Below are positions 15,580-16,403 of a stretch of 36,713 bases of DNA, one piece after another. A program made the position numbers and the translations under genes. The notes under the pieces are model-generated. The model had not been told where the DNA came from. It was given only the letters and a program-made list of their open reading frames with translations, and did no database searches. The stretch lies in NCBI GenBank assembly GCA_015272465.1, contig JACYLR010000112.1:1-36713 (forward strand), written 5' to 3'. Numbering within the stretch: position 1 is the first letter of the stretch; each line of letters starts with the position of its first letter. The stretch is from Gloeomargaritaceae cyanobacterium C42_A2020_066. GTDB taxonomy: Bacteria > Cyanobacteriota > Cyanobacteriia > Gloeomargaritales > Gloeomargaritaceae.

Positions 15580-15743
15580 GGCGCTGATCTCCTCATGGCT
15601 GGCTTGGCCCCGTACTCATGGTGCCACGGGTCACGGGGACTGCCTACGGACAACCGGCCGGCCGGTGCCCAAATTATTAAGATTTCGATAGGATGGTTTA
15701 CGAAACATTACATTCTCGCTGTGGGCGACTCAGGAGGCTGGGG

Positions 15744-16403
15744 ATGATCGGTCGTATTGATGGTCAGCGGTTATGGCGGCGACTCGCCACGCTGGGTGCG
15801 GTCAGTATTCTGGCCATGGGTTTTGCCGCAGCGCTTACGGGTGTGATGCTGGCGTTCTACTACGAGCCAGTCGCGGGGGGCGCTCATGAGTCCCTGGCGC
15901 GGGTGGTGCAGGACATTCCCAATGGCTGGCTGGTGCAGTCCCTGCACGACTGGGCGGGTAATGGGGTTATCGCCTTGGGGCTGATTCAGATCGTTGTGCT
16001 GTTTTTAGGGCGACGATTCCAGCCGGGTTGGCTAGTGGCCTGGATCAGTGGCATCCTGCTGGTGCTGGCAACGATTGGCCTGGGCTGGACTGCCATGATC
16101 TTGGATTGGGATCAGGTGGGGTATTGGCGGCAGAAGGTTGAGTTACTGACGATTGAGGCGATCCCCGTTCTGGGAGCAACCCTACGGGATGCGATCACCG
16201 GGGGGGCAGGCATCTCCTCTACTACGGTGGCGCACCAGTATGCCCTCCACAGCTATGTGCTATCTCTGGGGGCGATGTTGCTAGCCGTAGTGCATTTGGC
16301 CAGCTTACTCTGGCAAGAACTTCAGGATGCTGAGGTGATCAAAGGTTGGCAACCCTGGGGTCGGCCGGCCGCCCTCAATTCTGAGGAATCCTCCCTGGGT
16401 TAG
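15744..16403 (+). CDS. Divergent cytochrome b6-like membrane protein
   Basis: The ORF track starts at 15693, but AGGAGG at 15732-15737 sits 6 bases before ATG 15744, giving 219 residues, the size of PetB. Four membrane helices and b6 landmarks are present: LTGVMLAFYYEP, GWLVQSLHDW, ILDWDQVGYW and EAIPVLGATL followed by LHSYVL. By eye alignment, b6 heme ligands correspond to His68, His169 and His184, but the fourth (His100 of b6) is Gln82. The cysteine that binds heme c in b6 aligns with leucine. One b heme should be retained, while the second site and heme c are doubtful. No subunit IV gene follows. It is a paralogue, not the main petB; a role in an alternative electron carrier is inference. 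Confidence 0.82.
   Translation: MIGRIDGQRLWRRLATLGAVSILAMGFAAALTGVMLAFYYEPVAGGAHESLARVVQDIPNGWLVQSLHDWAGNGVIALGLIQIVVLFLGRRFQPGWLVAWISGILLVLATIGLGWTAMILDWDQVGYWRQKVELLTIEAIPVLGATLRDAITGGAGISSTTVAHQYALHSYVLSLGAMLLAVVHLASLLWQELQDAEVIKGWQPWGRPAALNSEESSLG

Follow-up and report, generated by a model that had tools for sequence, protein, structure and literature searches.

In textbooks, cytochrome b of the bc1 and b6f complexes is a bundle that binds two hemes, and these link the two quinone sites. The window analyzed here (the whole stretch of 36,713 nucleotides) encodes a relative of cytochrome b6 that is missing one heme ligand, which raises the question of whether this gene encodes a PetB, a decaying copy of it, or a protein with a heme content and a use of its own. 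We favor, with modest confidence, the view that it represents a family of stand-alone b6 paralogues that have kept heme bp, have lost hemes bn and cn, and might use a rebuilt pocket on the cytoplasmic (n) side for electron transfer between plastoquinone, or some other small molecule, and the lumenal (p) side.

The gene, its genome, and its relation to PetB

The open frame and its ribosome-binding site are listed in Table 1. An alternative in-frame ATG at position 15693 would add 17 amino acids, an extension that is absent from the orthologues. The 219-residue product matches Pfam domain PF00033 with 93.5 bits (cut-off 27.2), and its neighbors within the window are DUF1614, DUF1816, and CbiD genes. 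No subunit IV gene adjoins it at the locus, as an earlier, sequence-only reading had noted; the sole PF00032 match in this genome (2.73 Mb in 246 contigs) is a normal petD on another contig (C120), where it adjoins a normal petB, and the same search found no second petD elsewhere in the genome. That normal PetB (273 bits) is the only other PF00033 protein encoded in the genome.

Two further observations concern the rest of the window. Positions 60 to 2630 encode an 856-residue protein in which a domain that binds cyclic nucleotides is joined to an AAA domain of the sigma-54-activator type and to a 4Fe-4S membrane domain; sigma-54 is not known to be used by cyanobacteria, which makes this fusion odd. 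The octamer GGCCGGCC, which is HIP1-like and differs from HIP1 in sequence, occurs in 101 copies across the whole window versus 3.4 expected.

Table 1. Positions of the paralogue and its diagnostic residues in the window, and members of the family with a fused N-terminal domain
Feature	Position	Strand	Remarks
Cytochrome b6 paralogue, stand-alone, four transmembrane helices	15744..16403	+	219 aa; open frame, PF00033, fold model
Ribosome-binding site AGGAGG	15732..15737	+	Six bases 5' of ATG
Leu17, at PetB Cys35 (heme cn attachment) position, ungapped register	15792..15794	+	Counted from Gly33/Gly51
His68, = PetB His86, heme bp ligand	15945..15947	+	66/66 aligned members
Gln82, at PetB His100 position, lost heme bn ligand	15987..15989	+	Gln 62, Glu 3, Asp 1, His 0 of 66
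Trp96, at PetB Arg114 position, cytoplasmic BC loop	16029..16031	+	Trp in 63/63
Arg129 (Ala147 in PetB)	16128..16130	+	Invariant in the Gln82 family and the Gloeobacterales second PetB
Glu133 (Val151 in PetB)	16140..16142	+	Invariant in the Gln82 family and the Gloeobacterales second PetB
His169, = PetB His187, heme bp ligand	16248..16250	+	65/66 aligned members
His184, = PetB His202, former heme bn ligand	16293..16295	+	66/66 aligned members
Fused cytochrome members L081, L084-L086, L089, L096-L099, L107			In most cases with a PadR regulator gene immediately upstream

The closest solved structures are those of cytochromes b6 (2zt9 and 1vf5, E-values of about 1e-28; phmmer E of 9.9e-29 for the Nostoc chain 2zt9_A). 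The structure prediction that the sequence-only reading had called for returned the same fold: an AlphaFold2 model built with 63 orthologues as input has a mean pLDDT of 90.3, and the top Foldseek matches in the PDB are all cytochrome b6 chains, with TM scores of up to 0.75. The paralogue shares with PetB of the b6f complex the four-helix fold, the PF00033 domain, the equivalents of His86, His187, and His202, and the Trp-x-Gln and Gly-Tyr/Phe-Trp motifs of the cd loop. However, its sequence is only about 28% identical to PetB, it lacks the N-terminal helix and the C terminus of PetB, as well as a linked petD, one of the four axial histidines, Cys35, and the arginines at positions 114 and 207. 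Since several defining features of PetB are missing, we do not file it as PetB, although it belongs to the cytochrome b fold. Among single b6-like cytochromes in NCBIfam, the best score was to the ExtP b-type cytochrome (NF040969), of which the paralogue is not a member (105.2 bits against an equivalog cut-off of 290). No prior description of such a paralogue was found in the open-access full-text literature, so that the family appears to be undescribed as far as that literature shows.

Heme ligands and the n-side pocket

In cytochrome b6, heme bp is held by residues 86 and 187, and heme bn by residues 100 and 202. All four are histidines that serve as axial ligands, and Cys35 is the attachment site of heme cn (PMC5730185). 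These positions were mapped through the phmmer alignment to the Nostoc cytochrome b6 (2zt9_A), which has no gaps from helix B on. The alignment agrees with the sequence-only reading that three of the b-heme histidines are kept and that Gln82 takes the place of the fourth, a position where none of the 66 aligned members has His. The same reading had assigned Leu to the Cys35 position, which holds by ungapped counting; MAFFT places a gap there instead, and there is no Cys at or beside this position in either register. Thus, with His68 and His169 kept and His100 replaced, the bp site retains both of its histidines, and one ligand is missing from the bn site. No substitute His in helix B is conserved among the 66 aligned members. 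Met86 was considered as a substitute ligand and discarded, as 7 members, including the paralogue of the window, have Leu at this position.

The divergence from PetB is uneven, with 35% identity in the lumen-side half versus 18% in the cytoplasm-side half, yet inside the family, which we refer to by its Gln82, conservation is 76% for the part of helix B on the cytoplasmic side. Arg114 and Arg207, which in PetB are located by hemes bn and cn, are both gone: the former is replaced by Trp96 and the latter mostly by Leu, Ile, or Val. In addition, PetB Gly37 is replaced by Ala or Ser and Arg103 by Val. The position of PetB Gly121, a residue that presumably packs on heme bn, retains a Gly (Gly103) in 59 of 63 members. 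The paralogue of the window carries the whole family signature, namely Gln, Glu, or Asp at position 82 together with His68, His169, His184, Trp96, Arg129, and Glu133. As judged from these alignments, the p-side heme site is kept, and the n-side pocket is rebuilt rather than decayed.

Distribution, variants, and the second PetB of Gloeobacterales

Orthologues (E of 1e-30 or lower; 45 to 61% identity) are found in 78 of the 390 sampled genomes of the class, representing 44 of 160 genera; the family to which the window belongs has seven further genomes, all of them without one. Neither a His at position 82 nor a full ligand set, which the sequence-only reading had named as possible refutations, was found in any of the 66 aligned members. 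With regard to the insertion history, the genes flanking the locus are not syntenic in the sister genus, and a search for plasmid-borne relatives yielded just weak matches in other phyla, with about 28 to 32% identity. In a PF00033 survey of 194 genomes, a normal PetB was found in the genome of the window and in nearly every other carrier; the exception is G016, where it was seen only as a fragment. A second petD is present in just two carriers outside Gloeobacterales among the 25 genomes tested, and in both it is a near-copy of the normal petD. The same class also includes a genome (G142; a single 3.8-Mb contig, 99% complete) with zero PF00033 matches, i.e., with no detectable petB.

One locus would fit a decaying petB duplicate: L092 in genome G148 is a partial copy, whose match covers residues 37 to 200 and has a TAG inside. 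For the family, this explanation is scarcely credible, as it is contradicted by the purifying selection seen across genera. Given a median dN/dS of about 0.11 (29 closer pairs), the spread over 44 genera, and the conservation of the replacement residues, the sequence comparison indicates that the paralogue is selectively maintained and not a decayed copy.

Several variants deserve mention. Ten genomes from two families encode a fused form, in which a helical domain that includes one extra hydrophobic helix precedes the cytochrome (Table 1), and a PadR-type regulator is encoded directly upstream in nine loci. In most of the fused cases, the new ATG follows an apparent TGA within a few bases, which suggests coupling within an operon. 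Two genomes of sister classes (G452 and G447; loci L166 and L167) contain tandem cytochrome b genes, one of which has Arg and Glu at the expected heme bn ligands. A member of the Gln82 family, L079 (G211), combines Asp82 with Asn169 and lacks one ligand of each heme while its frame is open. Such a protein would fit a PetB derivative that binds no heme and acts as a scaffold in the membrane or as an assembly factor; for the family at large we find this improbable, as the conservation of His68 and His169 in all or all but one of the aligned members is far above what a scaffold needs.

No redox or operon partner recurs in the 63 neighborhoods compared, and a Rieske or cytochrome f neighbor is not conserved. 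A lipase-like gene upstream (12 loci) and an antiporter-like gene downstream (13 loci) were considered as partners; both look like shared synteny.

A second PetB of another type is encoded in seven Gloeobacterales genomes from three deep families (loci L148-L154, also listed as L168-L174), alongside a normal PetB. It keeps His86, His187, and His202, has Phe at position 100, and lacks Cys35. Like the Gln82 family, it shows a Trp-Arg-xxx-Glu motif after helix C, a short N terminus, and the loss of His100; unlike that family, it has Phe at position 100, keeps Pro139 and Gly135, and usually has petD next to it, whereas the paralogue of the window has neither this Phe nor a divergent petD downstream. 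A divergent short PetD-like gene directly follows the second PetB in 5 of the 7 genomes, with a PEWY motif in those that were read, and is located elsewhere in G095. This second PetB and its PetD could possibly form a second b6f-like complex that lacks heme bn. The tree joins the Gloeobacterales second PetB and the Gln82 family with 95/90 support, on two long branches, and either group can also be placed with PetB without rejection by AU tests (P of 0.10 for the Gln82 family and 0.13 for the Gloeobacterales proteins). These results are at most suggestive of a common origin of the two groups; His100 may have been lost once, at an early date, or on two occasions.

The Gloeobacterales gene pair also offers a possible parallel for viewing the paralogue as an alternative b6 subunit that, under some condition, would join the normal PetD, Rieske protein, and cytochrome f in a b6f-like complex with a bypassed n side. 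The closer similarity of the lumen-side half to PetB fits this view. Nevertheless, the missing N-terminal helix and C terminus, the diverged n-side surface, and the lack of an adjacent petD, or of any second petD in most carriers tested, make it an improbable one.

Heme content and possible role

The amide-for-histidine replacement H212N in cytochrome b of the Rhodobacter capsulatus bc1 complex hits the other ligand of the pair, on helix D. Reported as a knock-out of heme bH (PMC4807273), this mutant resembles the paralogue in that a side-chain amide replaces one heme bH ligand; it is, however, engineered and impaired at heme bH/Qi, whereas Gln82 is natural, conserved, and located on helix B. 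In cytochrome b6, heme bL binds first, and the H86A/H187A variant binds no heme (PMC5730185). The order of binding, the kept bp ligands, and the rebuilt n side make a one-heme protein plausible, and the bc1 knock-out makes a single heme bp the likeliest state, so that the paralogue probably carries one heme where cytochrome b6 has three.

Two findings count against the one-heme reading: the invariant His184, which a wholly vacated heme site does not obviously need, and the retention of Gly103 in most members. Both fit the main competing explanation, in which both b-heme sites are filled and heme bn is five-coordinate and high-spin, with His184 as the proximal and Gln82 as the distal residue, leaving an open iron face that could react with plastoquinone, oxygen, or nitric oxide. 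Globins with a distal Gln and, to some extent, heme cn of the b6f complex provide parallels, and a polar residue stands opposite His184 in 66/66 members. We nonetheless regard this explanation as unlikely, considering the loss of Arg114 and Arg207, the replacement of Gly37 by Ala or Ser, and the removal of heme bH function by a single Asn in bc1 (PMC4807273).

Under the preferred one-heme reading, the four-helix b6 fold would keep the lumen-side heme bp on His68 and His169, ligands that are assigned by alignment. On the cytoplasmic side, heme bn would be absent, and so would the covalently attached heme cn, as Gln82, the lack of Cys35, and the replacement of Arg114 and Arg207 suggest, and the n-side pocket would be rebuilt around the conserved Gln82-His184 pair and Trp96. 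The paralogue alone would not run a Q-cycle, because it lacks a dedicated PetD, and genes for a Rieske protein or cytochrome f are not conserved beside it. The vacated Gln82-His184 pocket may, most plausibly, take up plastoquinone or some other small molecule. Electrons might then pass through the single heme between this pocket and a partner on the p side. The sequence-only reading had proposed a single-heme, quinone-linked cytochrome with a new role. Its single heme finds good support in the sequence, through the loss of the bn ligand, of Cys35, and of the residues around hemes bn and cn, and in the literature on bc1 and b6; the quinone link and the new role found no such backing, with no conserved partner gene in the 63 neighborhoods.

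Taken further, the paralogue may be a one-heme, stand-alone b6 derivative that works outside the Q-cycle in an electron branch between the Gln-His site and the lumen, perhaps with an ancestry related to that of the Gloeobacterales second PetB; we offer this fuller picture tentatively and consider it doubtful as a whole. If true, it would add an unrecognized branch to photosynthetic or respiratory electron transport in cyanobacteria. In about one-fifth of the cyanobacteria sampled, a natural b6 relative minus one heme ligand is selectively maintained, which suggests that such a bundle can be kept for a use other than the Q-cycle. The Gln82 family would also provide a natural test of how heme bp acts without heme bn, and it points to an uncharacterized component of cyanobacterial electron transport that is open to knock-out in culturable strains.
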